Below, piece by piece: positions 758-59,172 of a stretch of 64,000 nt of DNA. The stretch is from Clostridiales bacterium FE2011 (GTDB taxonomy: Bacteria; Bacillota; Clostridia; Christensenellales; Aristaeellaceae). The stretch spans positions 248,001 to 312,000 of the forward strand of contig CP069418.1 of NCBI GenBank assembly GCA_017569305.1. The letters run 5' to 3'. Within the stretch, counting starts at the first letter, position 1, and each line of letters starts with the position of its first letter. Made by a program: the position numbers and the translations under genes. Below the pieces are notes generated by a model. It made no database searches, was not told the DNA's origin, and was given only the letters and a program-made list of their open reading frames with translations.

Positions 758-820
758 AACTATTCACTCTTCACTCAAAACTCTTAACTCTGAATTCTGA
801 ATTCTTAATTCTGAATTCCT
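758..820 (+). repeat. Heptamer repeat array (9 units)
   Basis: Nine 7-bp units run without a gap. They begin with AACTATT and CACTCTT, drift to AACTCTT and end as AATTCTG variants. The last unit ends on the base next to the folC stop codon (821). It belongs to the dispersed family described in the findings, with general form (A/C)A(C/G/T)T(A/C/T)(T/A)N. Confidence 0.85.
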
Positions 821-2110
821 TTATGGATCCAGCCCCAGTTCGCTCCTCATTGCCCCGATAAAGTACAGGCTTCCCGTTGCCAGGATCAGTCCGTCTTCAC
901 CGGCCAGCTTCCCGGCAGTTTCCAGTCCTTCCTTCAAACTGTTCGCCGCACGGGCTTTCATTCCCTTCCCGCGCAGCAATTCGGCCAGTTCTTCCGCTTT
1001 CATAGCCCGGGGGCTGTCAGGCGTCACCGTCACCGCGGTATCGGTTACAGAAGCAAGTCCGCCCAGCATTTCTTCGGACAGTTTTTCCTTCAGCACGCCG
1101 GTCAGCAGCACCTTCCTTTTTCCGGAAAGATGCTCCTGTACATACCGGTTGAAAGCAGCGATTCCCTGTGCGTTATGGGCACCGTCCATGACCACGTTCC
1201 CGCACCATTCCAGCCGTCCCGGCCAGAAAGCGTTTCCGAGTCCGCTGATCACAGCCTCTTCCGGCACACGAATTCCCTGCTTCTCCAGTTCCTCCAGGAC
1301 GCAGAGCACCACCAGGGCATTCACCGTCTGGTGCTCACCCGACAGGGAGATTCTCAGGTTTGTCCACACGCGGTTTCCTGTCTTATAATCCGCAATGGTA
1401 TACCGTGCATTGGCTTCCCGGATCCTGATCTGCTCCTTTTCCGGAATAATCAGGGGCGCTTCTTCTTTTTCTGCCCGGGCGTTCAGCACTTCCCGAACTT
1501 CTTTTTCCTCCGGAGGATAACAGACTACAGGTACCCCGTATTTGATGATGCCTGCCTTTTCACCCGCGATCTCTGTCAGGGTATTACCGAGATACTGCAT
1601 ATGATCCATACCGATTGCCGTAATGGCACAGACAGTCGGATTCGGTATAGCATTGGTCGGATCAAGCCGTCCGCCCATTCCCGTCTCCGATATGATCAGC
1701 TCCGCTTTTTCAGCCTGGAACGTATGAAACGCCAGGGCAGTACCCAGTTCAAATGGCGTGCAGTGATAATCCAGCTCCCTTTTAAGCTTCTCCGCCGCGT
1801 CCAGCGTTTCGTTACCATAATGTGCAAGCTGTTCCGCTGTAATCGGTTTTCCGTTCAGCCGGATCCGCTCATTGTACGTTTGCAGGAAGGGAGAGGTATA
1901 CATGCCTGTCCTGTATCCTGCCGCTGTCAGCACGCTGTTCAACATGGCACAGACGCTTCCCTTTCCGTTTGTACCGGCCACATGGATCACCGGACAAGCC
2001 GGCCATGCCTGTAAAGTCTCAAGCAGGGCTGCGGTATTCCGCAGCCCCTGCTTGTCTCCGTCCCCCAGGGCGGAATGTATTTCGTTTACAACCTCTTCGG
2101 CAGTTCTCAT
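821..2110 (-). CDS. folC: Folylpolyglutamate synthase / dihydrofolate synthase
   Basis: Cytosolic Mur-ligase-fold enzyme of 429 residues that adds glutamate to dihydropteroate or to reduced folates, retaining them in the cell. Visible motifs are the ATP loop HVAGTNGKGSVCAML (residues about 43-57), ISETGMGGRLDPTNA, the DH block ITAIGMDHMQYLG and GEKAGIIK, and a C-terminal VMDGAHNAQGI (Mur-ligase domain 2). The length is normal for the family. The start codon overlaps the valS stop by 4 bp (ATGA), so the two are translationally coupled. The folate theme returns at 59.8-60.7 kb, where folT carries a tetrahydrofolate riboswitch. Confidence 0.95.
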   Translation of the reverse strand: MRTAEEVVNEIHSALGDGDKQGLRNTAALLETLQAWPACPVIHVAGTNGKGSVCAMLNSVLTAAGYRTGMYTSPFLQTYNERIRLNGKPITAEQLAHYGNETLDAAEKLKRELDYHCTPFELGTALAFHTFQAEKAELIISETGMGGRLDPTNAIPNPTVCAITAIGMDHMQYLGNTLTEIAGEKAGIIKYGVPVVCYPPEEKEVREVLNARAEKEEAPLIIPEKEQIRIREANARYTIADYKTGNRVWTNLRISLSGEHQTVNALVVLCVLEELEKQGIRVPEEAVISGLGNAFWPGRLEWCGNVVMDGAHNAQGIAAFNRYVQEHLSGKRKVLLTGVLKEKLSEEMLGGLASVTDTAVTVTPDSPRAMKAEELAELLRGKGMKARAANSLKEGLETAGKLAGEDGLILATGSLYFIGAMRSELGLDP

Positions 2111-4761
2111 AGATTCTCTTTCAGTTCCGCAATGCGGTTTTCCAGTGCGGCAGCCTTCGACTTCGCAGCTTCCAGCTTATCCTTCTCCTGCTGCACCAGC
2201 TGCGCCGGTGCCTTGGCCAGGAAGCCCTGGTTGTTCAGCATGCCGTTGGAACGGGCCATTTCCTTCTTCAGGTTTTCCAGTTCCTTGGTCAGCCGTGCAA
2301 CTTCCTTCTCAAAGTCCACCAGATCACCCAGCGGGATGAAAAGCTCACCGGCCGCCACCACGGCAGACACATTCTTGCCTGTGGCGTCGCTGCGGTCAGA
2401 AATCAGTTCCACCTGCTCAGCGCCGGCCAGCTTCTTGAAGTAGCCTTCGCCGCCCTTCAGCGTATCGGTCCAGCCGTCCGCCGGCAGCAGCATCAGATGG
2501 GTACGCTTGGACGGCATCACGTTCATCTCGCTGCGCAGGTTCCGGATCGTGCGGATGATTTCCATCACGCCCTGCATCTTTTCTTCATCCCCGGCGAACA
2601 CATACGCTTCATTGTATTCCGGCCAGCTCTGAAGCATCAGGAAGCCTTCGCTGCCGGGCAGATACTTGTAAACCTGTTCGGTCAGGAAAGGCATGAAGGG
2701 ATGCAGCAGCTTCAGCAGGTTTTCCAGCACAAACAGCAGCACAGCCTTCACGGTTTCCTTGCTTTCGCCTTCTTCGCCCAGCAGGCGGGACTTGCTCAGC
2801 TCAATATACCAGTCACAGAATTCGCTCCAGGCGAAGTCATAGATCTTCGTGGCAGCCAGGCCGAAGTCGCCGTCCTCCATATGCTCGGAGATATCCTTCA
2901 CTGCCTCCTGCAGCCTGGTCAGGATCCACTTGTCCGCAGTCTCCAGCTTCGCGGGATCAAAGGCTTTCCGCTCGTTTACGTTCATCAGTACAAAGCGGCT
3001 GGCGTTCCACACCTTGTTGGCAAAGTTCCGGGCAGCCTCCACCTTGTCCTTGCCGTAGCGGGTATCATTGCCGGGGCTCACGCCCATTACCAGGCTGAAG
3101 CGCAGCGCGTCGGTACCGTATTCGTCAATAACCTCCAGCGGATCTATGCCGTTGCCCAGGGATTTGGACATCTTCCGTCCCTGTTCATCCCGCACCAGGC
3201 CGTGGATCAGCACCGTCTCAAAGGGTGTCTCACCCATGTTCTCGATACCGGCAACCATCATCCGGGAAACCCAGAAAGTAATAATATCCCAGCCCGTCAC
3301 CAGCATACTGGTGGGATAGAAGTATTTCAGATCTTCCGTGTTGTCCGGCCATCCCAGGGTGGAGAAAGGCCACAGGGCGGAGGAGAACCAGGTATCAAGC
3401 ACGTCCTCATCCTGGCGCAGCTTGCCGCCGCACTTCGGGCAGACTGTCGGATCCTCGCGGCTCACGATCTGTTCGCCGCAGTCATCGCAATACCACACCG
3501 GAATCCGGTGTCCCCACCACAGCTGACGGCTGATACACCAGTCGCGGATGTTTTCCATCCAGTTATAGTACATTTTGCTGAACCGTTCCGGCACAAACTT
3601 CGTCCGGCCTTCCCGCACAGCGGCAATAGCTGGTTCAGCCAGAGTCTTCATCTTCACGAACCACTGTTCGCTCAGCCGTGGTTCCACAGGCGTATTCCCG
3701 TGGCGGTAGCAGAAGCCCACATTATGGCTGTAGTCTTCAACCTTCACCAGCAGCCCCAGCTTCTCCAGTTCTTCAACCACGGCCTTCCGGCATTCCATGG
3801 GATCCATGCCGGCAAAGCGTCCGGCATTCTCGTTCATGGTGCCGTCGTCGTTGGTCACCGTGATAATCTCCAGGTTGTGCCGCTGGGCCACTTCAAAGTC
3901 GTTCGGGTCATGGGCGGGAGTCATCTTCACCGCGCCGGTGCCGAACTCTTTTTCCACATAATCATCCGCGACCACTGGAATTTCCTTGTTCACGATGGGC
4001 AGGATCACTTTCTTTCCCACCAGGTTCGTATACCGTTCATCGGCAGGGTTCACGGCCACGCCGGTATCACCCAGCATGGTTTCAGGCCGGGTAGTGGCCA
4101 CCACGACGCCTTCGCTTCCGTCGGCGCCGGGATAACGGATATGCCACAGGTGGCTGGCCACATCCTTGTATTCCACTTCCGCGTCGCTGATGGCGCTCTG
4201 GCAGGCGGGACACCAGTTGATCATCCGGTTTCCGCGGTAGATCAGTCCCTTTTCATACAGACGGACAAACACCTCACGCACAGCGCGGCTGCAGCCCTCA
4301 TCCATGGTGAAGCGTTCCCGGCTCCAGTCGCAGCTGATACCCATCTTCCGCTGCTGGTGTACAATTCGTCCGCCGTATTCTTTCTTCCAGTTCCAGGCGC
4401 GTTCCAGGAAAGCTTCCCGGCCGATCCCCTCTTTGGTCAGGCCTTCTTTCCGCATGGCTTCCACAATCCTGACCTCTGTCGCGATGGCGGCATGGTCAGT
4501 ACCGGGCAGCCACAGGGTGGGATCACCCTTCATCCGGTGATAACGGATCGGGGCATCCTGCATGATGCAGTCCATGGCATGGCCCATATGCAGCTGGCCG
4601 GTAATATTGGGCGGAGGCATAACGATGGTGAATGGTTTCTTTCCCTCAACCCTGTGCGCGGTAAACGCGCCGGATTCTTCCCAGGCTTTATAGATGTCAG
4701 CTTCGATCTCCTGTGGATTGAACCGTGTCGCCATATCGGCGCCGCTCATTTTCTTCTCCAT
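2107..4761 (-). CDS. valS: Valyl-tRNA synthetase
   Basis: Class Ia aminoacyl-tRNA synthetase of 884 residues charging tRNA-Val, full length for the bacterial enzyme. It has the HIGH motif as NITGQLHMGHAM near residue 55, the CP1 editing region (TTRPETMLGDTGVAVNP), the KMSKS motif as GRKMSKSLGNG around residue 530, the anticodon-binding domain, and the C-terminal coiled coil rich in Lys/Glu from about residue 815. GGGAGGAT precedes the ATG. It lies 98 bp downstream of rpmF. I saw no T-box leader in that gap, only a terminator-like hairpin, so expression appears to depend on read-through from the yceD-rpmF promoter or on an unseen promoter. Confidence 0.97.
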   Translation of the reverse strand: MEKKMSGADMATRFNPQEIEADIYKAWEESGAFTAHRVEGKKPFTIVMPPPNITGQLHMGHAMDCIMQDAPIRYHRMKGDPTLWLPGTDHAAIATEVRIVEAMRKEGLTKEGIGREAFLERAWNWKKEYGGRIVHQQRKMGISCDWSRERFTMDEGCSRAVREVFVRLYEKGLIYRGNRMINWCPACQSAISDAEVEYKDVASHLWHIRYPGADGSEGVVVATTRPETMLGDTGVAVNPADERYTNLVGKKVILPIVNKEIPVVADDYVEKEFGTGAVKMTPAHDPNDFEVAQRHNLEIITVTNDDGTMNENAGRFAGMDPMECRKAVVEELEKLGLLVKVEDYSHNVGFCYRHGNTPVEPRLSEQWFVKMKTLAEPAIAAVREGRTKFVPERFSKMYYNWMENIRDWCISRQLWWGHRIPVWYCDDCGEQIVSREDPTVCPKCGGKLRQDEDVLDTWFSSALWPFSTLGWPDNTEDLKYFYPTSMLVTGWDIITFWVSRMMVAGIENMGETPFETVLIHGLVRDEQGRKMSKSLGNGIDPLEVIDEYGTDALRFSLVMGVSPGNDTRYGKDKVEAARNFANKVWNASRFVLMNVNERKAFDPAKLETADKWILTRLQEAVKDISEHMEDGDFGLAATKIYDFAWSEFCDWYIELSKSRLLGEEGESKETVKAVLLFVLENLLKLLHPFMPFLTEQVYKYLPGSEGFLMLQSWPEYNEAYVFAGDEEKMQGVMEIIRTIRNLRSEMNVMPSKRTHLMLLPADGWTDTLKGGEGYFKKLAGAEQVELISDRSDATGKNVSAVVAAGELFIPLGDLVDFEKEVARLTKELENLKKEMARSNGMLNNQGFLAKAPAQLVQQEKDKLEAAKSKAAALENRIAELKENL

Positions 4762-4781
4762 GGTAATCCTCCCTCATTCCC

Positions 4782-4822
4782 GTAAATAGAAGAAACAGCC
4801 CCGACCCTGATGGGCGGAGCTG
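4782..4822 (-). terminator. Terminator-like hairpin between rpmF and valS
   Basis: On the minus strand AGCTCCGCCC pairs imperfectly (9 of 10, one G-U) with GGGTCGGGGCT around an ATCA loop, followed by the T-rich stretch TTTCTTCTATTT. It could end or attenuate transcription from the ribosomal-protein promoter before valS. Confidence 0.5.
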
Positions 4823-4859
4823 CGATTCTTTAATCCTTGGCCAAAAATGCAGTCGACAA

Positions 4860-5054
4860 TCAGGCGTTCTTCTCTTCGTCCTTATTGACGACGACCTGGA
4901 CGCCGTTATAATAACCGCAATTCTTGCACACGCGATGAGACAGTTTCATCTGACCGCACTGCGGGCACTTGCCGATTCCCGGCAGTGTGAGCTTCCAGTT
5001 AGCGCGGCGGCTGTGCTTGCGAGCCTTAGAGATTTTCCCCTTCGGAAGAGCCAT
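4860..5054 (-). CDS. rpmF: 50S ribosomal protein L32
   Basis: A 64-residue component of the large ribosomal subunit. It begins [19 protein letters not shown], the conserved L32 N-terminus, and contains a four-cysteine zinc ribbon (CPQCG ... CKNCGYY). It starts 3 bp after the stop of the DUF177 gene. The DUF177-rpmF pair is conserved across bacteria, and in Bacillus the neighbour is ylbM (tmcAL), which is also close by here at 7.1 kb. Confidence 0.97.
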
Positions 5055-5057
5055 GAT

Positions 5058-5549
5058 TCACACCTCCTCATTGTCTTGAAGCAATTGCTGCAGTCCTGCG
5101 AACGGATATTGAACGCCCGGTTCGGAAGGAACTGCTTCCGGGTCCCTGTATTCAAAGCCCGGACAATCCTCTCTGCAGAGAAAGCGGATCGGCAGAGCCA
5201 TGACGGCGTATGACATAACCAGCTTGTCCAGCAGGATCTCATGCCCTTCATAGGCAAAGATCTCGTTATCCTCCTGATCGCCGTTCCTGTGGAACACCTC
5301 GTCGAATACGTTTTCGACTTCGGCCTGTGCGTCCTCAAGACAATTGGCGCAGTGAGCGTGGGCAATGGTCTTCAGCTTGCCTCTCACCGAGATGTTTCCG
5401 TCTTCATCTGACAGGAACACGCCTTCCACGGCGCAGTCGTCAATCCTGACGGTGTCACCGCTGATCTCCTGATCCGCAATGGCCTGCAGACCCGAGAAAA
5501 GGTACTCCTGTCCGGGATGGGATAAAGCATTCGATACGTCAAGCTTCAT
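5058..5549 (-). CDS. yceD: DUF177 (YceD/YlbN-like) protein
   Basis: A 163-residue cytosolic protein of the DUF177 family, which is linked to large-subunit/23S rRNA accumulation in bacteria and plastids, with a mechanism that is not settled. Two cysteine pairs are visible: HCANC at about residues 91-95 and CREDCPGF near 144-151, the usual metal-binding pattern. It is the first gene of the yceD-rpmF-valS-folC run and lies under a near-perfect promoter 30-60 bp upstream. Confidence 0.88.
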   Translation of the reverse strand: MKLDVSNALSHPGQEYLFSGLQAIADQEISGDTVRIDDCAVEGVFLSDEDGNISVRGKLKTIAHAHCANCLEDAQAEVENVFDEVFHRNGDQEDNEIFAYEGHEILLDKLVMSYAVMALPIRFLCREDCPGFEYRDPEAVPSEPGVQYPFAGLQQLLQDNEEV

Positions 5550-5577
5550 GTCCTCACCTCAAAAGTGACCATTTGGT

Positions 5578-5606
5578 ATTATAATTCGATGCAAATCGTT
5601 TGTCAA
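5578..5606 (-). promoter_or_regulatory. Sigma-A promoter of the yceD-rpmF operon
   Basis: Minus strand: TTGACA (5601-5606) and TATAAT (5578-5583), both exact consensus, with a 17-bp spacer. This is the strongest promoter match in the window, as expected for a ribosomal-protein operon. Confidence 0.9.
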
Positions 5607-5633
5607 CAAAGAATTTGCGCCGATTTTTCTCCC

Positions 5634-5663
5634 GTTTCACCCGGCGTTTTTTCCGGGTGAAAC
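5634..5663. other. Perfect 11-bp inverted repeat between ackA and yceD
   Basis: GTTTCACCCGG and its exact complement flank an 8-nt loop (CGTTTTTT). It lies between the ackA stop and the yceD promoter. It may be the ackA terminator, although neither side carries a clear T tract outside the stem. Confidence 0.6.
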
Positions 5664-5682
5664 CGGAGATAAAGTAACTACT

Positions 5683-5702
5683 AATTATGCATAATGCATT
5701 AA
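5683..5702 (+). repeat. Heptamer-like AT repeat
   Basis: About three 7-bp units (AATTATG, CATAATG, CATTAAT) end directly at the ackA stop codon. It is a degenerate member of the heptamer family and also forms an AT-rich palindrome around ATGCAT. Confidence 0.5.
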
Positions 5703-6941
5703 TTAATTGTCTCTGACCTTCCCGGTGGTGACCAGGTCCAGTGTATCCCGTGCAATCATGATTTCCTCATTTGTGGGAATCACGCAGACCGTAACCTTGC
5801 TGTCATCCGCGGAGATCACCGCTTCCTTGCGGGTCTTGTTCTTCTCGGTATCGATCTTGGCGCCCATGAATTCAAGGCCGTCGATCACCTGGGCACGCAG
5901 GTCGGCGTTGTTCTCGCCGATACCGGCGGTGAACACGATGATGTCCACACCGCCCATGGCGGCTGCATAGGAACCGATATACTTCTTGATGCCGTAGATC
6001 AGCATATCCTGGGCCAGCTTCGCGTTCGGGTCGCCCTTGCTTGCCAGGTCGTCAATATCCCGGCAGTCGCTGCTCTTGCCGCTGATGCCCAGCAGACCGC
6101 TCTTCTTGTTCATCATGGTCAGCACTTCGTCCACGCTGATCGGATGGCCTACGGGAGTGCCGTCATCGTTCAGGGGATTGTTGGCGATAAACTGCACAAC
6201 TGCGGGATCGCAGCTGCCGCAGCGGGTGCCCATCAGAAGGCCTTCCAGGGGCGTCAGGCCCATGGAGGTATCCTGGCACTTGCCGTCCATCACGGCGCTC
6301 AGGCTGGAACCGTTGCCCAGGTGGCAGATGATGATCTTTTTGCCGATGGGGCTGATTCCCAGGAATTCGCATACGCGGCGGCTCACATAGCGATGGCTGG
6401 TGCCATGGAAGCCGTAACGGCGCACATGCAGTTTCTCTTCATACATTTTCGGCACGCCGTACATATAAGCCTTGGGCGGCATGGTCTGATGGAAAGCGGT
6501 ATCGAACACCGCCACCTGGGGAGTGCCCTTCATGACCTTTTCGCAGGCTTCAATACCCATCAGGTTGGCAGGATTGTGCAGCGGTCCCAGTGGGAAGCAG
6601 TCACGGATCGCCTGTTTCGCGGCGTCATTCACAATAACAGAGGCCGTGAACGCGCTGCCGCCGTGCAGCACCCGATGGCCGACAGCACCGATTTCATCAG
6701 TGCTCTTGATCACGCCGAACTCCGGATCCTGCAGGATCTTGAGCATCAGCTGTGCAGCGGCTTCATGGTCCGGGATCTCCTGTGCGATCTCAGTCTTTTT
6801 GTCACCGGCGCTGTGCTTCAGCTTGCTGCCCTCAATGCCGATACGTTCGACCAGGCCCTTGGCCAGCTCCTTCTCGCCGTCCATGTCGATCAGCTGATAC
6901 TTCAGGGAAGAAGAACCTGCGTTCACAACCAGAATTTTCAT
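5703..6941 (-). CDS. ackA: Acetate kinase
   Basis: A 412-residue cytosolic enzyme of the ASKHA superfamily that interconverts acetyl phosphate + ADP with acetate + ATP, giving substrate-level ATP in fermentation. It begins MKILVVNAGSSSLKYQL. Other signatures are GHRVLHGG, VAVFDTAFHQTMP, RYGFHGTSHRYV, ICHLGNGSS and VFTAGIGENN. The length is standard. No phosphotransacetylase gene is adjacent. The divergent neighbour tmcAL uses acetate directly for tRNA modification, which may explain the pairing. Confidence 0.97.
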   Translation of the reverse strand: MKILVVNAGSSSLKYQLIDMDGEKELAKGLVERIGIEGSKLKHSAGDKKTEIAQEIPDHEAAAQLMLKILQDPEFGVIKSTDEIGAVGHRVLHGGSAFTASVIVNDAAKQAIRDCFPLGPLHNPANLMGIEACEKVMKGTPQVAVFDTAFHQTMPPKAYMYGVPKMYEEKLHVRRYGFHGTSHRYVSRRVCEFLGISPIGKKIIICHLGNGSSLSAVMDGKCQDTSMGLTPLEGLLMGTRCGSCDPAVVQFIANNPLNDDGTPVGHPISVDEVLTMMNKKSGLLGISGKSSDCRDIDDLASKGDPNAKLAQDMLIYGIKKYIGSYAAAMGGVDIIVFTAGIGENNADLRAQVIDGLEFMGAKIDTEKNKTRKEAVISADDSKVTVCVIPTNEEIMIARDTLDLVTTGKVRDN

Positions 6942-8311: not shown

Positions 8312-8430
8312 ATCTGTCTTTAGACAGATATTTCACATTGAGCCTTCAGGCTCAATATTTCATGTTCGCATCGCGAACATTTCACATCCGCCATATGGCG
8401 GATATTTCATTATTTTGTCGAAGACAAAAT
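8312..8430 (+). repeat. Array of five hairpins separated by ATTTCA(C/T)
   Basis: Five short perfect inverted repeats with unrelated sequences follow one another: 8312-8329 (loop TTTA), 8337-8356 (loop TTCA), 8362-8380 (loop ATC), 8386-8403 (no loop) and 8412-8430 (loop GAA). Their arms end in AT, and the spacers all reduce to ATTTCAC or ATTTCAT. The last hairpin uses the final codons and stop of the minus-strand FAD gene. Similar arrays lie at 53515-53638 and 60804-60924. Confidence 0.9.
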
Positions 8431-16022: not shown

Positions 16023-16907
16023 ATGCCGCTGAAAGAAATAATCATCCCCAGGGACGCTGTCGGACAGCGTGTAGCGGACTATCTTCGTTCCGCGCTCCCG
16101 GATCTTCCGGAGAGTGTGCTTCGGCGTATCTTTGCTTCCCGGGATGTAAAGCTTGACAGTATCCGGGTTTCCCGTGATCAGCGGCTGCAGGAAGGGCAGT
16201 GCCTGAAAATCTATATACCTGACGCTTCAGCCGGCAGTTCTTCTGCCGCCCCCTCCCTGTCTGTTGTATATGAGGATGACGACGTGCTTCTGGTGAACAA
16301 GCGTGCCGGCATCAGTGTGGAGCCGGATGCCCGCGGCGGTGTCACCCTGACGGATCTGTGCCTGGAATATGTCCGCCGGAACAACCCGGACGCTTTCCCT
16401 CCTGCTGCCTGTCACCGTCTGGACAATAAAACCTGCGGATTGTGTCTTTTTGCGAAAAACCAGCAGGCGCTTGATATCCTGCAGGACGTATTCCGCAGCC
16501 GCAAACTGGAAAAATATTATGTCTGTCTCGTTCGGGGAATCATGAAACCTCCGGAGGCCGTTTGTCACGCCTGGCTTGTAAAGGATGCGCTTCATGCCCG
16601 GGTACGTATCACGGATCATCAGGAACCGGGGGCGAAGCCTGTCACCACTGGTTATGAAACGCTGGAAAGCGGTCCTGTTTCCCGTCTCCGCGTGCATCTG
16701 ATTACCGGCCGCACCCATCAGATCAGGGCTCACCTGGCTGCCCTGGGACATCCGCTGCTGGGTGACGATCTTTACGGGGACCGCGATTTCAATCGCCGGG
16801 AAAAAGCCCGCAGCCTGAAACTCTGTGCTGTCTCTCTCACCATTGACACCGATGGCCGTCTTCCCGCCCTCGACGGCAAAACTTTCACCATCTACCCGCC
16901 GTTTTAA
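16023..16907 (+). CDS. RluA-family pseudouridine synthase
   Basis: A 294-residue enzyme converting uridine to pseudouridine in rRNA or tRNA. The N-terminal 60 residues resemble an S4 RNA-binding domain (VADYLRSALPDLPESVLRRIF). The catalytic motif is present as CHRLDNKTCGLCLFAK around residue 130, with the aspartate in HRLD. VYEDDDVLLVNKRAGISVEP and RLRVHLITGRTHQIRAHLAALGHP-like motifs confirm RluA type. The substrate position cannot be told from sequence alone. Its TAA forms the first two bases of a heptamer array. Confidence 0.9.
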   Translation: MPLKEIIIPRDAVGQRVADYLRSALPDLPESVLRRIFASRDVKLDSIRVSRDQRLQEGQCLKIYIPDASAGSSSAAPSLSVVYEDDDVLLVNKRAGISVEPDARGGVTLTDLCLEYVRRNNPDAFPPAACHRLDNKTCGLCLFAKNQQALDILQDVFRSRKLEKYYVCLVRGIMKPPEAVCHAWLVKDALHARVRITDHQEPGAKPVTTGYETLESGPVSRLRVHLITGRTHQIRAHLAALGHPLLGDDLYGDRDFNRREKARSLKLCAVSLTIDTDGRLPALDGKTFTIYPPF

Positions 16908-16954
16908 TTCATCATTCATCATTCACAATTCATCATTCCGAATTGTGAATTTTC
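16906..16954 (+). repeat. Heptamer repeat array (7 units)
   Basis: Seven gapless 7-bp units, of AATTCAT/CATTCAT type, begin inside the stop codon of the pseudouridine synthase gene. Confidence 0.85.
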
Positions 16955-17028: not shown

Positions 17029-17063
17029 AATTCTGAATTCATAATTCTGAATTCTGAATTACA
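17029..17063 (+). repeat. Heptamer repeat array (5 units) in the GH27 leader
   Basis: Five gapless units of AATTCTG type lie between the promoter and the ribosome site of the alpha-galactosidase, and so are transcribed as 5' leader. Confidence 0.9.
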
Positions 17064-18472: not shown

Positions 18473-18513
18473 AAGGACGGTGAAGTGAAACTTCACCGTC
18501 CTTATATTTTTAA
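18473..18513 (+). terminator. Intrinsic terminator
   Basis: AAGGACGGTGAAG and CTTCACCGTCCTT form a 13-bp perfect stem with loop TGAAA, followed by ATATTTTT. Confidence 0.92.
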
Positions 18514-18546
18514 GTTTTAAGTTTTCAGTCTTAATTATTCATTGAG
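18512..18546 (+). repeat. Heptamer repeat array (5 units)
   Basis: Gapless units AAGTTTT (twice), CAGTCTT, AATTATT, CATTGAG. The stop codon of the minus-strand amidohydrolase (18535-18537) lies inside the array, so the array encodes the last residues of that protein. Confidence 0.85.
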
Positions 18547-23024: not shown

Positions 23025-23048
23025 AATATTCCTCTTCTCAGTAACCAT

Positions 23049-23076
23049 CATTATTCATTATTAATTGTTAATTGCT
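23049..23076 (+). repeat. Heptamer repeat array (4 units)
   Basis: CATTATT (twice), AATTGTT and AATTGCT without gaps, between hslO and the methyltransferase gene. Confidence 0.75.
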
Positions 23077-27286: not shown

Positions 27287-27360
27287 AACTTAGTATGTTT
27301 CAGAGATGTACGAACCGCAATTTCGGTGGTGAGTCTCTGATCTCATCATTTTTATTTTTC

Positions 27361-27392
27361 AGGTTTTAGTCTTAAGTTTTAAGTTTTTCATT
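27361..27392 (+). repeat. Heptamer repeat array in the MoxR leader
   Basis: About four AAGTTTT/AGTCTTA-type units, two of them stretched by one T, run into the GGGAGG ribosome site of the MoxR gene. Confidence 0.7.
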
Positions 27393-29506: not shown

Positions 29507-29566
29507 AACTCTACACTCTTCACTGCCGCTTTAACGGCAACTCTTCACTCTCCACTCATCACTATC
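29507..29566 (+). repeat. Split heptamer array (3 + 4 units)
   Basis: AACTCTA/CACTCTT-type units (29507-29527) and a second block (29539-29566) are separated by the 11-bp GCTTTAACGGC. TGCCG/CGGCA at 29524-29539 can pair across the gap. An inverted piece of the array (AGTGAAGAGTGAT) follows near 29575. Confidence 0.75.
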
Positions 29567-29648
29567 CCGTGACCAGTGAAGAGTGATCAGCTAATCACTT
29601 AATCAGGCCGAATCAAAGATTCGTCTGATTGGAAAGGAGCCCCCTGAC

Positions 29649-31939: not shown

Positions 31940-31967
31940 AACTCTACACTCTTCACTCTTCAGTTGC
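31940..31967 (+). repeat. Heptamer repeat array (4 units)
   Basis: AACTCTA, CACTCTT (twice), CAGTTGC, right after the transglutaminase terminator. Confidence 0.8.
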
Positions 31968-31989
31968 GGAGTCATCTGTGCTTCAGACT

Positions 31990-32182
31990 GATCTGTCGGC
32001 ACTTTAGTGCCGGTAACAGATCGTCCATGCAGGCGTCAGCGCTTTAGCGCTGTTAACGCCGAGCCATCCACTGCTAATGCCTATCCGCAAGCTCAATGGT
32101 CGTGACTCCCCACTGGGGAGCTCACTCCCTTTCGCTTGACCTCAGCTCTGACAAAATATCTGCCACTGGCAGTTGTCAGAGC
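31990..32182. repeat. Cluster of structured hairpins in a gene-free region
   Basis: The 367-bp gap 31914-32280 has no gene. It holds hairpins of one shape: an outer stem, an asymmetric bulge, a 5-bp GC-rich apical stem and a 3-4 nt loop. They are 31990-32022 (GATCTGT, C, GGCAC, TTTA loop, bulge GGTA), 32032-32060 (GGCGT, C, AGCGC, TTTA loop, bulge GTTA), 32103-32126 (apical CTCCCC/GGGGAG, loop ACT) and 32145-32182 (outer GCTCTGACAA, bulge AATAT, apical CTGCC/GGCAG). A fifth member is at 59054-59088. Confidence 0.8.
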
Positions 32183-32186
32183 TTCG

Positions 32187-32258
32187 CCCATGCTACAGCC
32201 GTCCATTTCTGCGAGCTGTAAGCGATGGAGAAATGGAATACGGCGATCGCAAAGTTTT
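32187..32258. repeat. 72-bp dispersed element, copy 1
   Basis: It is nearly identical to 59087-59158, differing only in the central loop. The ends CCCATGCTACAGCCGT and ACGGCGATCGCAAAGTTTT are conserved, and the middle can form a stem (CCATTTCT/AGAAATGG). Confidence 0.85.
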
Positions 32259-32272
32259 CAGTTTTCATTGGT
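32252..32272 (+). repeat. Heptamer repeat array (3 units)
   Basis: AAGTTTT, CAGTTTT, CATTGGT at the end of the 72-bp element, just before the 3' end of the metal hydrolase gene. Confidence 0.7.
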
Positions 32273-45024: not shown

Positions 45025-46633
45025 TCTGAAAGTCCCTCTGGATTATACAGAGGACTCTTTGAAAACCATTCTTCTCAAAAAACTGAAGCTGAATCCGTCT
45101 GATCTTATCTCCTTTTCCGTCACCAGGCGCAGTATCGACGCACGGGATAAGCAGGACGTTCATTTTGTTCTTTCTCTTGATTTGTCCCTGAAAAATGAAA
45201 CCGGTGCCCTTCGGAAAAATAAAAATCTCTCCCCCATTTCTGCTTCTCGCAGTCATAATAATTCTGAATTCTTAATTCTGAATTCTGAATTAGGCCAGCG
45301 CCGACAACAAAAGGCATCGCCTTTGGTTGTCGGCGCCGGCCCGGCCGGTCTGTTTGCCGCGCTGACCCTGGCCCGTGCGGGAGCCTGCCCGGTTCTGATT
45401 GAACGCGGAAAACCTGTGGATCGGCGTACCAATGACGTCAATACCATGCAGGAGCAGGGCGTCCTGGATCCCGATTCAAACGTCCAGTACGGTGAAGGCG
45501 GGGCCGGAGCTTTCTCAGATGGCAAACTGACCTGCGGGATCAAGAGTCCCCATGTCCGGAACATTCTGGAAACCTTCGTTTCCCACGGTGCACCGGAAGA
45601 GATTCTCATTGACCAGAAGCCGCATATCGGCACCGACCGCCTGAAAGGTGTTGTGGCGTCTATCCGAGAGGAAATCATCCGTCTTGGCGGCACGGTTCAT
45701 TTTGAAACCCGCCTGGAAAAACTGATTATCCGCGGCAGCCACGTTGAGGGCGCAGTCATCTCCTGCAACGGTGAAACCCGTGAATTCCTCACGGATACAA
45801 TCCTGCTTTGCATCGGTCACTCTGCCCGGGATACGGTTCAGACGCTTTTCAGCCAGGGGCTTCGCATGGAGCAGAAACCCTTTGCCATGGGCGTCCGGAT
45901 TGAACATCCCCGCGCTTTCATTGACCGCTCCCAGTATGGTTCCTTTGCCGGTCATCCTGCCCTGGGCGCAGCCTCCTATAAGCTGATCTGTCATACACCG
46001 GACGGCCGGGGCGTCTATACCTTTTGTATGTGTCCCGGAGGAGAAGTGATCGCTGCGGCGTCCCAGCCCGGCGGAGTCGTCACCAACGGTATGAGTTTCC
46101 ATGCCCGTGATGGAGTAAACAGCAACTCTGCCCTTCTGGTGGGCGTCAGGCCCCAAGACTTTGGAGATGATCATCCCCTGGCTGGCTTCATTCTCCAGCG
46201 CAGTATTGAAAAAGCAGCCTACCGTGCCGGAGGCGGCGGGTTTATTGCGCCGGCCCAGCGCGTCGGGGATTTCCTGGAAAACCGGACTTCAGTCTCTTTT
46301 GGAGAAGTAATCCCCTCTTATCGTCCCGGAGTAGTCCCGGCGGATCTGCGTGCTGTTCTGCCTGACTGGATCGTCGAAGACCTGAAGAAAGGCATTCGCG
46401 CCATGAATGCCCAGCTTTCCGGTTTTGCCAATCCGGATGCTGTCCTGACGGGGCCGGAAACGCGTTCCTCTTCTCCTGTACGGATCAGCCGTAATCCCCT
46501 TGGAGAAGCCGAGGATCTCCGCGGGCTCTATCCCGTCGGCGAGGGTGCCGGTTATGCAGGCGGTATCGTTTCTGCCGCCGCGGACGGCATCACCGCCGCC
46601 CTTCATGTTCTGTCTGCCAATGACCTGATCTGA
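45008..46633 (+). CDS. FAD-dependent dehydrogenase, COG2509-like, with repeat-derived insert
   Basis: 541 residues, the second COG2509-type flavoprotein here. A small N-terminal domain (1-70, MVRLTNLKVPLDYTEDSLK) precedes the FAD motif LVVGAGPAGLFAALTLARAG near 108-127, then YGEGGAGAFSDGKLTCGI, and LYPVGEGAGYAGGIVSAAADG at the end. Between the two domains lies an insert (about residues 76-104) encoded by a heptamer array (45260-45294) plus one arm of a hairpin (45298-45336). The frame stays open through it. GAGGAAG precedes the ATG. The substrate is unknown. Confidence 0.87.
   Translation: MVRLTNLKVPLDYTEDSLKTILLKKLKLNPSDLISFSVTRRSIDARDKQDVHFVLSLDLSLKNETGALRKNKNLSPISASRSHNNSEFLILNSELGQRRQQKASPLVVGAGPAGLFAALTLARAGACPVLIERGKPVDRRTNDVNTMQEQGVLDPDSNVQYGEGGAGAFSDGKLTCGIKSPHVRNILETFVSHGAPEEILIDQKPHIGTDRLKGVVASIREEIIRLGGTVHFETRLEKLIIRGSHVEGAVISCNGETREFLTDTILLCIGHSARDTVQTLFSQGLRMEQKPFAMGVRIEHPRAFIDRSQYGSFAGHPALGAASYKLICHTPDGRGVYTFCMCPGGEVIAAASQPGGVVTNGMSFHARDGVNSNSALLVGVRPQDFGDDHPLAGFILQRSIEKAAYRAGGGGFIAPAQRVGDFLENRTSVSFGEVIPSYRPGVVPADLRAVLPDWIVEDLKKGIRAMNAQLSGFANPDAVLTGPETRSSSPVRISRNPLGEAEDLRGLYPVGEGAGYAGGIVSAAADGITAALHVLSANDLI
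45260..45294 (+). repeat. Heptamer array inside a coding region
   Basis: Five gapless AATTCTG/AATTCTT-type units encode NNSEFLILNSELG in frame inside the FAD dehydrogenase. Confidence 0.92.
45298..45336. repeat. 18-bp inverted repeat inside the FAD dehydrogenase gene
   Basis: Arms 45298-45315 and 45319-45336 match at 17 of 18 positions around an ATC loop. The right arm encodes the start of the FAD motif, and the left arm is its inverted near-copy. Confidence 0.85.
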
Positions 46634-48162: not shown

Positions 48163-48852
48163 TTATTGGGCAAGCATCTGCAATGCTTCTTCCCGTGTTA
48201 TCAGTTCTGCTGACAGCTGATGAGGAAGGCAGATAATCATATTCCACAGGATCCGGTCTTCCCGGTTTTCCAGCGTCACTTCACCCTGGTTCACGCAGTC
48301 ATGTCCCTCACAGTTTGCGTCTTCCATCCGGAAGCCGTTGGGCGTCAGGTGAAGCACGTTTACAAATTCAGAACCGTCAGCCAGTTTTGTCCGGATGGTT
48401 TTGCTGTACTCCCCCTCCAGCGGCAGGGGCAGCAGACCGATGGGATTCGGCATTCTGACCAGAACGTAGGCAATGGAAGGATCATCATCCGTAATCTGCA
48501 CCAGGAACGGCTGATCCGTCGCTTCCGCTTCTGCTTTATTATCTTTCTTTTCTGCAACCGGAACCTCTGTTTTTTCTGGTTCAGCATTTAATTCTGAATT
48601 CTGAATTCTGAATTCTGAATTATCATTCTCTTCTGCAGCAGGAGCTTCCGTATTTTCCGGTTCAGCAGTTAATACAGGAACTTCTTTTATATCTGTGGAA
48701 GGAACTGCTGTACTAACGTTCTCAGCATTTAATTCTGAATTCTGAATTCTGGATTCTGAATTGTTATTGCTGTTATTCAACAGCAATAACACTACTGCTG
48801 CAATAACAGCAATAACAACCACAGCTCCTGCAATCAAATACTTTTTCTTCAT
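48163..48852 (-). CDS. NusG_II domain membrane protein with heptamer-encoded linkers
   Basis: 229 residues. An N-terminal membrane anchor (YLIAGAVVVIAVIAAVVLLLL, 5-25) is followed by an extracellular Asn/Glu/Ala-rich linker of about 90 residues and a NusG domain II-like fold (GFRMEDANCEGHDCVNQGEV ... MIICLPHQLSAELI). NusG_II proteins commonly neighbour ApbE and flavin-based electron transfer genes. The linker contains the same 11-residue sequence twice with one change (NSESRIQNSEL / NSEFRIQNSEL), each encoded by a heptamer array and followed by NAE. The ApbE stop is 13 bp upstream. Confidence 0.85.
   Translation of the reverse strand: MKKKYLIAGAVVVIAVIAAVVLLLLNNSNNNSESRIQNSELNAENVSTAVPSTDIKEVPVLTAEPENTEAPAAEENDNSEFRIQNSELNAEPEKTEVPVAEKKDNKAEAEATDQPFLVQITDDDPSIAYVLVRMPNPIGLLPLPLEGEYSKTIRTKLADGSEFVNVLHLTPNGFRMEDANCEGHDCVNQGEVTLENREDRILWNMIICLPHQLSAELITREEALQMLAQ
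48590..48624 (+). repeat. Heptamer array inside the NusG_II gene, copy A
   Basis: Five gapless AATTCTG units, read antisense by the gene as NSEFRIQNSEL. Confidence 0.93.
48731..48765 (+). repeat. Heptamer array inside the NusG_II gene, copy B
   Basis: Five gapless units with one GATTCTG variant, read by the gene as NSESRIQNSEL. Confidence 0.93.
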
Positions 48853-49858: not shown

Positions 49859-49887
49859 TGTTTCCTCCATATATGAATCAGACCATT

Positions 49888-49915
49888 AATTCTTCATTTT
49901 TCATTCTTCATTAGT
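49888..49915 (+). repeat. Heptamer array overlapping the end of the Gx gene
   Basis: AATTCTT, CATTTTT, CATTCTT, CATTAGT. The stop (49894-49896) and last codons of the minus-strand gene lie within it. Confidence 0.8.
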
Positions 49916-53447: not shown

Positions 53448-53482
53448 CCCCGCTGCCTTCGGGCAGCGGGGATTTTTCTTTG
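53448..53482 (+). terminator. Intrinsic terminator of the flavoprotein gene
   Basis: CCCCGCTGCC TTCG GGCAGCGGGG followed by ATTTTTCTTT. Confidence 0.95.
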
Positions 53483-53514
53483 CTCTTTACTATTATTCAT
53501 AAACATAAAAACAC

Positions 53515-53638: not shown

Positions 53639-53647
53639 ATATCATTG

Positions 53648-53715
53648 GAATAATCCTATATAACAAAACAGCCCCGGCGTTTCCGCCGGGGACTGTGTTG
53701 TATATAGGATTATTC
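53648..53715. terminator. 68-bp long hairpin over the EF-G-like stop codon
   Basis: Outer arms of 15 bp (53648-53662, 53701-53715) and an inner GC stem (CCCCGGCG/CGCCGGGG, loop TTTC) give an almost continuous stem of about 30 bp. The right arm contains the stop and last codons of the minus-strand gene. Confidence 0.85.
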
Positions 53716-55797: not shown

Positions 55798-56010
55798 TGT
55801 TGTCATTCCTCCTTATTTATTTAAACGATAATCATCCCGCTTTCCGAATTCGCGAAAAGCCGGATCAATAGCTAAATGAGAGTATACCATATTCAGGTAC
55901 AAAAGAAAAGGAAAAATATATTTTTCGGTCAGTTCTAAGCCAGAAAACCAATGTTGCCGCAGTCTCCGGCGGCTGATTAATCTTTTTCGCGGCCGCAGCC
56001 GCTTATTCTT

Positions 56011-56045
56011 AAGTCTTAAGTTTTCAGTTTTAAGTATTCATTAAA
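56011..56045 (+). repeat. Heptamer repeat array (5 units)
   Basis: AAGTCTT, AAGTTTT, CAGTTTT, AAGTATT, CATTAAA, running into the murI palindrome. Confidence 0.85.
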
Positions 56046-56087
56046 TGGAAAAGGCTGCTGAATCATTCATTCAGCAGCTTTTCCATT
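56044..56087 (-). terminator. Palindrome with the murI stop codon at its loop
   Basis: Nineteen base pairs with one bulged G: AATGGAAAA/TTTTCCATT and GCTGCTGAAT/ATTCAGCAGC. The TGA (56063-56065) is at the edge of the 5-nt loop, and one arm encodes the last residues MEKLLNE. Confidence 0.75.
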
Positions 56088-56815
56088 AGTTTAATTTCCC
56101 TCTCTCCCCCGCTTGTCTGCAGCTCCACACTTCCGGGGCCTTCATCGTTCAGCAGGTTTTCCCTGTCCAGCACTCTTCTCAGTTGGCGGGCTGTACCCGC
56201 GTTTCCGTCAGTAATGGCAATCCGTTCCGGCAGCAGTTCCCGGATCATATCCTTCAGGAACACATAATGCGTGCAGCCAAGTACGACTGCGTCCACCTTT
56301 TCTGCCGGATACCGGGCAAACAGTTCTTTCAGGTATTGCAGAGCGCCATCCCTGTCATCTGCCTCCACCAGTTCCATCAATCCGGGACAAGGCACTTTCA
56401 CCGCACCTTCTCCATACTGCTTCATCAGGTTTTCAAACTTCTCCTGATGCAGTGTCAGCGGCGTAGCCAGTACCAGCACACTGCCGTTCTTTCTCATCCT
56501 GGCGGCAGGCTTCAGGGCAGGTTCCATTCCAACCACAGGAATGGTCAGTTCTTCCCGCAGAACAGCCGCAGCTGCTCCTGTAGCGGTATTGCATGCAATC
56601 ACCAGCGCCTTGATATGCTGCTCTGTCAGTTTATCAACCACATTCCTCACGCATCCAATAACCTCTTCAGTGCTCTTGGTTCCGTAAGGGGCATTTGCCA
56701 TGTCTCCGTAATAGATAAAGCGCTCATCCGGAAGTTCGCGGACCATTTCACGCAGGGTGCTGATTCCTCCCACCCCGCTGTCCAGAACTCCGATCGGATC
56801 GCGCTTTTGATTCAT
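56063..56815 (-). CDS. murI: Glutamate racemase
   Basis: 250 residues. It supplies D-glutamate for peptidoglycan. The two catalytic cysteines are in VIACNTATGAAAA (about 70) and VVLGCTHYVFL (about 181). It starts with IGVLDSGVGGISTLRE. AGAGG lies 8 nt before ATG 56815; the TTG two codons upstream is less likely. Its stop lies in a long palindrome. Confidence 0.95.
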   Translation of the reverse strand: MNQKRDPIGVLDSGVGGISTLREMVRELPDERFIYYGDMANAPYGTKSTEEVIGCVRNVVDKLTEQHIKALVIACNTATGAAAAVLREELTIPVVGMEPALKPAARMRKNGSVLVLATPLTLHQEKFENLMKQYGEGAVKVPCPGLMELVEADDRDGALQYLKELFARYPAEKVDAVVLGCTHYVFLKDMIRELLPERIAITDGNAGTARQLRRVLDRENLLNDEGPGSVELQTSGGEREIKLMEKLLNE

Positions 56816-56976
56816 GATCAATTCCTCTTTTGCTTCCCGTTTTCTTCGCGATATTTTATCAAATTCTCCGTCTTCTGTAAACCTCGGTTGAATTTTCCCC
56901 CTTCATGCGATATCATGACGAAGGATTTGATTTCTATTTATATACTTTCTTAATCCGTTCATGTATAAGTATATAT

Positions 56977-57010
56977 AATTATGAATTATGAATTATGAAT
57001 TGTGAATTAA
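56977..57010 (+). repeat. Heptamer array in the DUF951 leader
   Basis: AATTATG (three times), AATTGTG, AATTAAA, ending just before ATGGAG. This array has G rather than C on the plus strand and may be in reverse orientation. Confidence 0.85.
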
Positions 57011-57022
57011 ATGGAGTTATTT

Positions 57023-57235
57023 ATGATAGAAGAGATTTTAGTCGGCGACGTCATCACCACCCGTAAACCCCATCCCTGCGGATCCAATGAATGGACAGTT
57101 ATCCGCACTGGCGCCGATATCAAAATCCGTTGCAGCGGCTGCGGCCGGATTGTCATGCTGGATCGGGAAAGCTTTCTCCGCCGCCGCAAATCCGTGCTGT
57201 CACGCGGTACAAAGCAGTCTGAATCTTGCCAATAA
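57023..57235 (+). CDS. DUF951 family protein
   Basis: 70 residues. The family core GDVITTRKPHPCGSNEWTVIRTGADIKIRCSGCGRIVMLDRESF is complete, with three cysteines as a likely metal or nucleic-acid binding site. DUF951 proteins lie near parB/ychF genes in many Firmicutes and may bind RNA, but the role is unproven. ATGGAG before 57023 is the ribosome site, so I prefer this start to the ATG at 57011. Confidence 0.88.
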   Translation: MIEEILVGDVITTRKPHPCGSNEWTVIRTGADIKIRCSGCGRIVMLDRESFLRRRKSVLSRGTKQSESCQ

Positions 57236-57318
57236 ACTCTCCCCTATGCTATAATGCCTGTTGATATTTCGTCAGTTCTGTATTTGACTGATTAATCTCA
57301 GAGAAAGACGGTGATCCC

Positions 57319-58923
57319 GTGCGGAAATCGTTATTGCTCGTTCTGGTTCTTTTCCTTTTGGCCTGCTGCACATATGCTCTGGCTGACACTGAAATCACGC
57401 TGGAACCCTGTGCCGGTAAAATGTCCATTAATGAGGAAAAGTATATACTCCTGACGCCTTCCAATCTTTCCGATCATCCTGATCTGGTAAGCAGTCTCGG
57501 CATGTCCCAGGAAGATCTGCTGGCTGACTGGAAGGATCGCGGTGTACAGTTCCAGGCCTGGACCAAGAAGATGGATTCCTGTCTGGAAGTCACTGTCATC
57601 CAGGATGAAGAATCCGCCATGTATTTTGACCTGGAGCAGAAAACCCGCAAGGAACGTAACGAATATCTGAAGCTTCATAAAGGATCCGGTCGTTTTGCGC
57701 AGGACGGTTTCACCATTCTGCAGCCCGAGTGGAAAAAGCAGAAATACGGCGGAAACTTCCTCAAATTCGAATATAAGCGCACCGTAGGTGAAAAGACCTG
57801 GCGTGGTTTTGTCCGCAAAACTGTCCGCAACGGCTACACCATCATGCTGGATTATCAGACTTTTGATCGTCTCCCCCGCCGCACGGATGAGGACGCGCTG
57901 AACAAGATTGCCAATACGATTTCCTTCGAAGTCAAAGATCCCATGCAGGTAGCCCAGCAAGCCGCCCAGCAGGCTGATAACGGAGAAGATGGAACCGCTC
58001 AGTCCTTTGAAGAGATTTCCGCCCTTAAAGCCGGCATGATTAACATCTCTGTTTATCCGCCGGATCAGACCAACTCCAGCACCTTCACTGTTGAGGGAAC
58101 TTCCACCCCCGGCGGTGTGGTCACCGTCGTGGGCATGCGCATTGCAAAAACAGAAGCCCACAGGTTCAATGCAGAAGTGACCTCCAAGGGAAATTTCAAA
58201 GTCAACGTTACCCTTCCGGAAGAAGGCGTCTGGAATTTCACCATCGGGCTGGAAGCCGACGGCAAAACCTATCCCTATGAAAATGTCAAGCAGACTGAAT
58301 ATTATGCATCGCTTCTGCCTGTCACGCTCGATACACAGTTCCCCGCTGAGCTCACCTCTGATGAGATGACCATCTCCGGCACCACCGATAAAGGTGTTAC
58401 CGTTCAGTGCATCGTTCAGTGCAATGGCTCTGCCATCCTGAACAAGCAGATCAAAACCAACGGTACAGGAACCTTCAAGTTTAAGGTCTCCACTGCTGTT
58501 GAAGGCAGTTATGATTTCGTCCTGTCTTTCCAGAAGAAGGGACTCAATAACGTACGCAAGAGCTTCACAAGCACCCGTACGCTGACTGCCGCCGATAATC
58601 AGGCCCGCGCCAACACAAAGGCCATTCATCCCGCCTACAAAGCCCTGATGAACAGCATGGACAGCTATATCGGCAAAACCATGGTCTATTCCGTTCATAT
58701 TGTGAATGTGACGAATAACACAGATCAGTGGGTCATCCAGGCTGCCCTGAAAAAGAACAGGGGAACCTATTCCAACTTTGTTTACTACATTGCTGACACG
58801 GATCCCGGACTGGAACCCGGTACCAAGGTAAAGGTTTACGGCGTCTTCACCGGCGGTTACCCGGTACAGTCTGAAGAAGACATCGTCACCTTCCCCGGCT
58901 TCGACTACGTCTCCTACGAATAA
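57319..58923 (+). CDS. Secreted beta-rich protein of unknown function
   Basis: 534 residues. Signal peptide MRKSLLLVLVLFLLACCTYALA. The N-terminal 200 residues (LLTPSNLSDHPDLVSSLGM ... NKIANTISFEV) are alpha/beta. Two Ig-like modules follow (ISVYPPDQTNSSTFTVEGTSTPGGVVTVVG and the one starting LPVTLDTQFPAELTSDEMTISGTT). The last 100 residues are OB-like, as in the protein at 11.2 kb. GTG start; the ribosome site is weak. It stands alone between DUF951 and a terminator. A wall or surface role is an inference from export and fold only. Confidence 0.75.
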   Translation: MRKSLLLVLVLFLLACCTYALADTEITLEPCAGKMSINEEKYILLTPSNLSDHPDLVSSLGMSQEDLLADWKDRGVQFQAWTKKMDSCLEVTVIQDEESAMYFDLEQKTRKERNEYLKLHKGSGRFAQDGFTILQPEWKKQKYGGNFLKFEYKRTVGEKTWRGFVRKTVRNGYTIMLDYQTFDRLPRRTDEDALNKIANTISFEVKDPMQVAQQAAQQADNGEDGTAQSFEEISALKAGMINISVYPPDQTNSSTFTVEGTSTPGGVVTVVGMRIAKTEAHRFNAEVTSKGNFKVNVTLPEEGVWNFTIGLEADGKTYPYENVKQTEYYASLLPVTLDTQFPAELTSDEMTISGTTDKGVTVQCIVQCNGSAILNKQIKTNGTGTFKFKVSTAVEGSYDFVLSFQKKGLNNVRKSFTSTRTLTAADNQARANTKAIHPAYKALMNSMDSYIGKTMVYSVHIVNVTNNTDQWVIQAALKKNRGTYSNFVYYIADTDPGLEPGTKVKVYGVFTGGYPVQSEEDIVTFPGFDYVSYE

Positions 58924-58942
58924 TCCTTTCCCAAAACCAATC

Positions 58943-58985
58943 AACCGGCATCCGGATTCCCCGGCTGCCGGTTTTCATATTTTAC
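58943..58985 (+). terminator. Terminator of the secreted protein gene
   Basis: AACCGGCA and TGCCGGTT enclose a CCGG-containing loop, followed by TTCATATTTT. Confidence 0.75.
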
Positions 58986-59029
58986 ATATACTTTACTATT
59001 ATCACTTGGTATGAAAACTATAATATTTT

Positions 59030-59050
59030 AAGTCTTAAGTTTTAAGTTAT
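59030..59050 (+). repeat. Heptamer repeat array (3 units)
   Basis: AAGTCTT, AAGTTTT, AAGTTAT. Confidence 0.75.
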
Positions 59051-59053
59051 TGA

Positions 59054-59088
59054 GGAGCCATTCGCACTTTAGTGCGATATATGGCTCC
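59054..59088. repeat. Structured hairpin, fifth member
   Basis: GGAGCCAT, T bulge, CGCAC, TTTA loop, GTGCG, ATAT bulge, ATGGCTCC. It has the same shape as the hairpins at 31990 and 32032 with different bases. Confidence 0.85.
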
Positions 59089-59158
59089 CATGCTACAGCC
59101 GTCCATTTCTGCGAGTTTGTGACGATGCAGAAATGGAATACGGCGATCGCAAAGTTTT
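59087..59158. repeat. 72-bp dispersed element, copy 2
   Basis: It matches 32187-32258 except in the central loop. Here the stem CCATTTCTGC/GCAGAAATGG is perfect, with an outer CCGT/ACGG pair. Confidence 0.88.
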
Positions 59159-59172
59159 AAGTTATGAGTTAT
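59152..59172 (+). repeat. Heptamer repeat array (3 units)
   Basis: AAGTTTT, AAGTTAT, GAGTTAT directly after the 72-bp element, as in copy 1. Confidence 0.75.

Follow-up and report, generated by a model that had tools for sequence, protein, structure and literature searches.

A 64,000-bp stretch of the Clostridiales bacterium FE2011 chromosome (G000:C1:248001-312000, hereafter the window; G000 is a single-contig genome of 3,562,493 bp) contains eighteen short arrays of 7-bp units, and raises the question of what determines the direction in which such arrays read and how they arise. The named relatives identified through an EF-G-like gene are mostly Clostridia MAGs, many of ruminant source, and the host of the arrays is a rumen-type bacterium. 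Heptamer repeats of cyanobacteria are known as STRR, and the arrays described here likewise consist of gapless tandem 7-bp units in excess over chance. The original prediction treated them as a single orientation-biased family; instead, they fall into two classes, each with its own orientation rule.

Heptamer arrays in the window and in related genomes

The arrays listed in the original prediction do exist: a scan for matches at lag 7 recovers 16 of the 18 at a score of at least 9 and 14 at a score of at least 10, and the two missed at the lower threshold are the AATTATGCATAATGCATT remnant at 5683 and the array of two to three units at 32252. An excess over chance was also found, with 14 lag-7 runs scoring at least 11 in the window as against none in each of 20 first-order Markov resamples. 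In 41 stretches of G000 (864 kb), 155 runs occur at lag 7 and at most 17 at each of lags 4-6, 8-13, and 15-20; lags 14 (120 runs) and 21 (84 runs) are also high, being multiples of 7.

The units were sorted into families by unit lists drawn up after inspection of the data. Class I comprises A (AATTCAT/AATTCAC), B (AATTCAG), and G (AATGCAT), and class II comprises the purine-rich families C (ACTTAAA), D (AGTGAAG), E (AGGTAGG), and F (AATGAAG), class II units being written on the strand that is mostly leading. The classified arrays number 264 in 80 stretches of G000, and 105 and 64 in the sister species G035 and G002 (480 kb each), after omission of the period-7 runs with fewer than two listed units (46 of 310, 4 of 109, and 10 of 74, respectively; 34 of 199 in an earlier family count); these three genomes represent one genus and have ancestry and arrays in common. 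The arrays of the window are collected in Table 1. In the three that lie in coding sequence (45260, 48590, and 48731), length differences from relatives are multiples of 3, bar one of 73, for which the anchors failed.

Table 1. Heptamer arrays in the window (window coordinates; strand as assigned; a point marks no strand)
Position	Strand	Class and units	Setting	Same site in relatives
758..818	-	Mixed; D-type ACTCTTC units passing into B-type AATTCTG units		14 nt longer in G035; flanks identical
5683..5710	.	Weak remnant		Four AATTCTG units in G002
16907..16951	+	Class I, A (AATTCAT/AATTCAC type)	Left border of promoter region; faces 17029, the pair bracketing the promoter region	G002 and G008 without both arrays of the pair; interval 56-58 bp shorter
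17029..17060	-	Class I, B (AATTCTG)	Between -10-like TATAAT and ribosome site of alpha-galactosidase-like gene	See 16907
18508..18543	-	Class II, C (TTTTAAG on plus)	Beside hairpins; overlaps 3' end of minus-strand amidohydrolase-family gene	
23048..23074	-	CATTATT type; given no family by classifier		
27349..27387	-	Class II, C	17 bp ahead of plus-strand MoxR-type AAA gene	
29507..29567	-	Class II, D (ACTCTTC)	Broken by TGCCG..CGGCA hairpin	
31941..31962	-	Class II, D		
32252..32272	-	Short C type (AAGTTTT), under scan threshold		
45260..45291	-	B	In coding sequence of FAD-dependent protein; encodes linker NSEFLILNSEL	Other heptamer units in G001 and G002
48590..48621	-	B	In small-protein coding sequence (N-terminal hydrophobic segment); encodes NSEFRIQNSEL	
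48731..48762	-	B	In same small-protein coding sequence as 48590; encodes NSESRIQNSEL	
49886..49912	-	Class II, F (CATTCTT)	Over 3' end of minus-strand gene	Class I-type units in G035
56007..56040	-	Class II, C	By terminator-like hairpin	
56977..57008	-	Class I, A (AATTATG)	Between TATAAT and ribosome site	Array absent from G008; interval in window 29 bp longer
59026..59048	-	Class II, C	One side of hairpin-rich dispersed element	
59152..59172	-	Short C type	Other side of element next to 59026..59048	

A hairpin-rich dispersed element (GCAGAAATGGAATACGGCGATCGCA and related stretches) has heptamer arrays at its ends at 31940-32252 and 59030-59152. The window also contains a THF riboswitch (60587-60685, minus strand, 86.2 bits) and a Gut-1 RNA match barely above the cut-off (8325-8412, minus strand, 50.9 versus 50 bits).

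This bacterium and its close relatives contain hundreds of short heptamer arrays at gene borders. A 32-mer of family A (at most two mismatches) has 103 matches in G000, overlapping ones counted, and is present in 9 of 61 genomes searched, comprising 9 of 37 within the genus and 0 of 24 in other genera. With a family F pattern, 9 of these 61 genomes give a match, including one from outside the genus; with a longer F pattern, 4 of 398 genomes from the phylum do so. In a viral collection, a contig whose host is not known (L285) carries facing pairs of AATGAAG-type arrays at 2419/2571, 3332/3483, and 8026/8281, and other period-7 arrays occur on many further contigs of the same collection.

Replichore polarity of class II arrays

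In the sampled stretches of G000, the GC skew reverses around 1.75 Mb and again around the contig ends; the three 16S matches are all on the plus strand, to the right of 1.75 Mb. The origin was therefore placed near 1.75 Mb, which makes the minus strand the leading strand in the window; replichore limits were judged by eye from the GC skew of sampled stretches. A dnaA match is located at G000:C1:3136510 (L126; 3.137 Mb), approximately 1.4 Mb from the GC-skew origin.

Of the 157 class II arrays sampled from three species, 144 have their purine strand on the leading strand (93/100 in G000, 24/26 in G035, and 27/31 in G002). For family F in three complete genomes, 24/26, 21/21, and 42/45 arrays agree (87/92), and the orientation flips at the GC-skew origin. 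All seven arrays of the window that were classified as class II show the plus-strand pyrimidine direction noted originally. The view that orientation is chromosomal and does not follow the genes thus holds for these asymmetric units, in the two sister species as well, and neither random orientation, nor a lack of excess, nor orientation along the adjacent gene was found for them. When arrays are sorted by flanking genes in fork order, the purine strand is leading in 28/32 lagging-lagging, 14/15 lagging-leading, 33/39 leading-lagging, and 62/64 leading-leading contexts; the first of these figures, for arrays between two lagging genes, rules out a pure gene-strand explanation.

The background purine asymmetry is real and large, and part of the class II polarity is this background. 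Purine-asymmetric 25-bp windows without arrays, taken from called intergenic gaps, are leading in 1551 cases and lagging in 619 (71%), compared with 137 and 13 for arrays (p = 1e-8). By context, in the same fork order, the leading fraction is 0.58, 0.72, 0.69, and 0.77 for these windows and 0.88, 0.93, 0.85, and 0.97 for arrays (p = 6e-4, 0.08, 0.055, and 3e-5), so that two of the four contexts are non-significant alone; the lagging-lagging comparison sets 28/32 arrays against 212/367 windows. In a looser control, 32-bp windows outside called genes and graded by purine content are leading in 77-80% (by genome) at 72% purine, 81-84% at 78%, and 84-93% at 84%, whereas class II arrays of less than 72% purine are equally polar (80/87). 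Because non-array tracts are 71% leading, and 77-93% in the looser control, class II polarity may largely be the extreme of a general purine asymmetry. This asymmetry is the main rival explanation and could make up the larger part of the polarity signal.

Of the 13 discordant class II arrays, the seven in G000 all lie at 1.73-2.35 Mb, near the origin, and the three arrays of lowest local skew among the 157 are all discordant; past inversions near the origin are possible. Polar signals of the KOPS/AIMS type combine replichore polarity with a rise in density toward the terminus. Class II arrays are replichore-polar, and no terminus-ward guidance gradient was seen in their density in the samples of G000, G035, and G002.

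Class I arrays and gene borders

In class I, the strand that reads AATTCA (or AATGCA) points outward from the abutting gene in 215 of 232 arrays (A and G 132/145, B 83/87), and border-following is weaker in class II (95/138). For this test, 145 of the 164 arrays of families A and G, 87 of the 112 of family B, and 138 of the 157 of class II were used, those without two distances or with distances within 15 bp being left out. Genes were called by our own codon-usage procedure with trimmed starts; since the arrays at 45260, 48590, and 48731 fall outside genes in these calls, coding arrays are included in some border counts. Among 103 neighbouring pairs of all classes separated by at most 300 bp, 75 face each other, 28 read in the same direction, and none face apart; where both members are class I, 58 pairs face and 6 read in the same direction. 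The gaps of A/A pairs span 72-275 bp, and many are close to 88 or to 140 bp. In 16 of 53 B arrays at 3' ends, the final AA of the stop codon TAA also belongs to the array.

The leading:lagging ratio of family A is 41:41 in G000, 23:22 in G035, and 4:0 in G002, and that of family B is 46:18, 21:9, and 15:3, respectively. The array at 56977, singled out earlier as possibly reversed, belongs to family A of class I, which has no replichore bias in G000. In all three genomes the density of class I is highest toward the origin and lowest toward the terminus (22.7/1.4, 20.0/4.3, and 15.0/2.5 arrays per 100 kb in the origin-most and terminus-most eighths), although individual middle bins in G035 and G002 exceed or fall below these values. 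The interiors bracketed by facing arrays are largely locus-specific: 54 interiors gave 20 within-genome hits, which fall among six interiors of G000 and two of G035, several with another dispersed repeat. A mobile element with a conserved body between terminal inverted repeats (MITE) was rejected on these grounds. Some interiors, e.g., at G000:1724538 and G000:2349750, contain a second, diverged dispersed repeat of the GTCATYYYGACC type.

Turnover, recurring words, and hairpins

A comparison of array lengths between strains had been proposed; of 56 array pairs between the sister species G000 and G035, 26 match in length, 13 are offset by exact multiples of 7, and 17 by other lengths. Length changes are often stepwise by whole units (13 of 30 unequal pairs). 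One G035 array is 20-21 nt longer than its own seed-like sequence. No cleanly empty array site was found between these two genomes, in which one site is shorter but aligns poorly and two are shorter in part, and hence the birth of an array was not seen. Between the same genomes, A and B arrays show higher conservation than the flanking sequence (0.97 versus 0.92 and 0.95), whereas the conservation of C, D, F, and G arrays is below that of their flanks (4, 6, 2, and 2 arrays, respectively). Different unit families occupy the same site across species at 49888, 45260, 5683, and 56977.

Fixed multi-unit words are shared by many loci and by several species of the genus, and most words of families A (91/129) and B (57/105) consist of four units. 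Exactly one CAC unit is present in 34 of 50 four-unit A words in G000 (20.8 expected) and in 22 of 28 in G035 (11.7 expected); the A words look copied and not built from independent units. Hairpins lie within 45 nt before and after the array, in word orientation, in 32/58 and 26/58 C arrays, 17/44 and 14/44 F arrays, and 7/29 and 17/29 D arrays, compared with 108 of 800 control 45-mers; the excess is small for family E (6/26 before and 5/26 after). A k-mer search outside the arrays listed only repeats of giant genes, and a repeat search in the flanks was confounded by neighbouring arrays. The giant genes, with tandem repeats of approximately 291 and 558 bp, are found at about 7,000-13,000 of L012 and in L030.

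Relation to known heptamer arrays

Dispersed intergenic heptamer arrays are already known from Xanthomonas, cyanobacteria, and Beggiatoaceae, and here they occur in two classes. The GGGAATC arrays of Xanthomonas campestris and X. axonopodis are intergenic with a mode of four units, lie near the 5' neighbouring ORF, at 28 nt on average as against 160 nt to the next ORF, and include 70 and 75 convergent inverted pairs; they are reported to have no leading/lagging preference (PMC4692102). Class I shares the four units, the proximity to the 5' neighbouring ORF, and the convergent pairs, and because of this common architecture it is filed as the same kind of array, with class II as a polar variant. 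On the other hand, the Xanthomonas unit, GGGAATC or (GGGANTN)n with G-quadruplex potential, differs from AATTCAT, AATTCAG, AATGAAG, and the other units found here, and class II is strongly replichore-biased, unlike the Xanthomonas arrays as reported.

Direct repeats of the heptamer TAACTGA occur in Beggiatoaceae, cyanobacteria, and Bacteroidetes, in many intergenic arrays with related heptamers mixed in and some against start codons, and indels between two close strains are mostly in 7-nt increments (MacGregor 2015, PMC4679880). They resemble the present arrays in being intergenic, in their mixed units, in their 7-nt steps, and in their contact with start codons; those of Maribeggiatoa lie mostly upstream of start codons in one sense, and their chromosomal arrangement is not known since the genome is not closed. 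A further likeness is that, in a Microcystis sample, eight sets between stop codons all read in one chromosomal direction, which was posed as an open question (PMC4679880). In a survey of over-represented heptameric repeats in bacteria, heptamers outnumber every other class of long repeats in most genomes (Mrazek and co-workers 2007, cited in PMC4679880 and PMC4692102), and the citing passages describe no orientation rule for them, unlike both classes here. Polymerase slippage with a contact length of 7 nt was once proposed (cited in PMC4679880). The perfect tandem repeats of Borgs, which are archaeal extrachromosomal elements, do not allow gene and replichore effects to be separated because almost every gene of a given replichore is on the same strand (PMC9879509). 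Among the titles and abstract openings retrieved by literature searches, none describes heptamer arrays of Clostridia that are oriented by replichore.

How intergenic heptamer arrays originate is not settled in the passages of these papers that were consulted. Fork polarity, the border rule shared with Xanthomonas, and the steps of 7 make this question testable: the polarity of class II points to replication, and an architecture that class I shares despite unrelated units points to a common process and not to a particular sequence.

Possible origin of the arrays

From the observed polarity, border rule, steps of 7, recurrence of words, and association with hairpins, we tentatively infer, at somewhat less than an even chance, that founding words are copied, turned over by 7-nt slippage at the replication fork, and retained at gene borders. 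A founding heptamer word would spread to new places by gene conversion or some other copying route, and the replicative polymerase may then slip by 7 nucleotides and thereby turn the word over in place. Slippage would be favored where the lagging-strand template holds a hairpin or a terminator, which would fix the strand of class II. Arrays would last only where they break nothing, namely just past stop codons, in 5' leaders, and in protein linkers. Slippage alone accounts for neither the recurrence of words nor the orientation of class I at borders, and the absence of replichore bias of family A in G000 and G035 and the small hairpin excess of family E are points against the fork model.

It is also conceivable, although rather unlikely, that composition and selection suffice, i.e., that purines prevail on the leading strand genome-wide, that the arrays are low-complexity spacers obeying this tendency, and that their orientation is silent on origin. 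Both sets of control windows lean toward the leading strand as this reading would have it; nevertheless, the arrays exceed the intergenic windows, in the lagging-lagging context included, if not significantly in two of the four contexts, and those poorer in purine are no less polar. Alternatively, the words may be selected binding or guidance sites, class II acting as polar signals to a DNA translocase or in the termination of head-on transcription (through pyrimidine-rich RNA and Rho) and class I as border sites facing a promoter. The conservation of A and B arrays above their flanks, the nearly fixed word length, and the presence of Rho agree with this idea, which we consider unlikely in view of the lower conservation of C, D, F, and G, the lack of a terminus-ward rise in class II, and the change of unit family at one site from species to species.

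A mobile element that puts ready-made words into the single-stranded lagging template in the manner of a Y1 transposase would account for fork polarity, hairpin association, and dispersed identical 32-mers, and G000 has three Y1 matches. This route is nonetheless very improbable: the one Y1 locus looked at has its own flanking repeat (GTCCCCAGTGTCCACTTTTT) and not heptamers, same-genus genomes without the A word also have Y1 genes, the A-word-bearing, incomplete genomes G005 and G017 show no Y1, no target duplication was established, and family A is without fork bias in G000 and G035. REP/BIME elements with RAYT were rejected on account of the same locus with its own repeat family and because the heptamer units are tandem and not palindromic. 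Least probable are fail-safe stops, by which a stop-bearing heptamer would close every reading frame behind a gene. Among class II arrays that follow leading-strand genes, 49 of 65 do have three-frame stops in sense (antisense 11), but among those that follow lagging-strand genes only 9 of 28 do (antisense 12), and in class I antisense exceeds sense (48 versus 15 of 87; 19 versus 7 of 34); a three-frame stop function was therefore rejected for lagging-strand genes and class I. Writing by a reverse transcriptase or a telomerase-like enzyme was likewise rejected, no RVT_1 match being found in G000, G001, G002, G008, or G035; of the nine A-word-bearing genomes, seven (G000 included) are without such a match, although G005 has four and G004 has one.

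Beyond the copying and slippage model preferred here, it is tempting to speculate that a single heptamer-writing process, operating either at the fork or at the borders of coding sequences, is common to bacteria of unrelated phyla. It would produce approximately four 7-nt units of defined polarity and any unit sequence with no reverse transcriptase, and class II would log the direction of fork passage at each site; such a generalization is distinctly unlikely.

The Y1 transposase-like gene flanked by GTCCCCAGTGTCCACTTTTT (L218, 14842-18853) lies inside a large, near-perfect inverted duplication, with arms of 890 nt (99% complementary) and 587 nt (95%).
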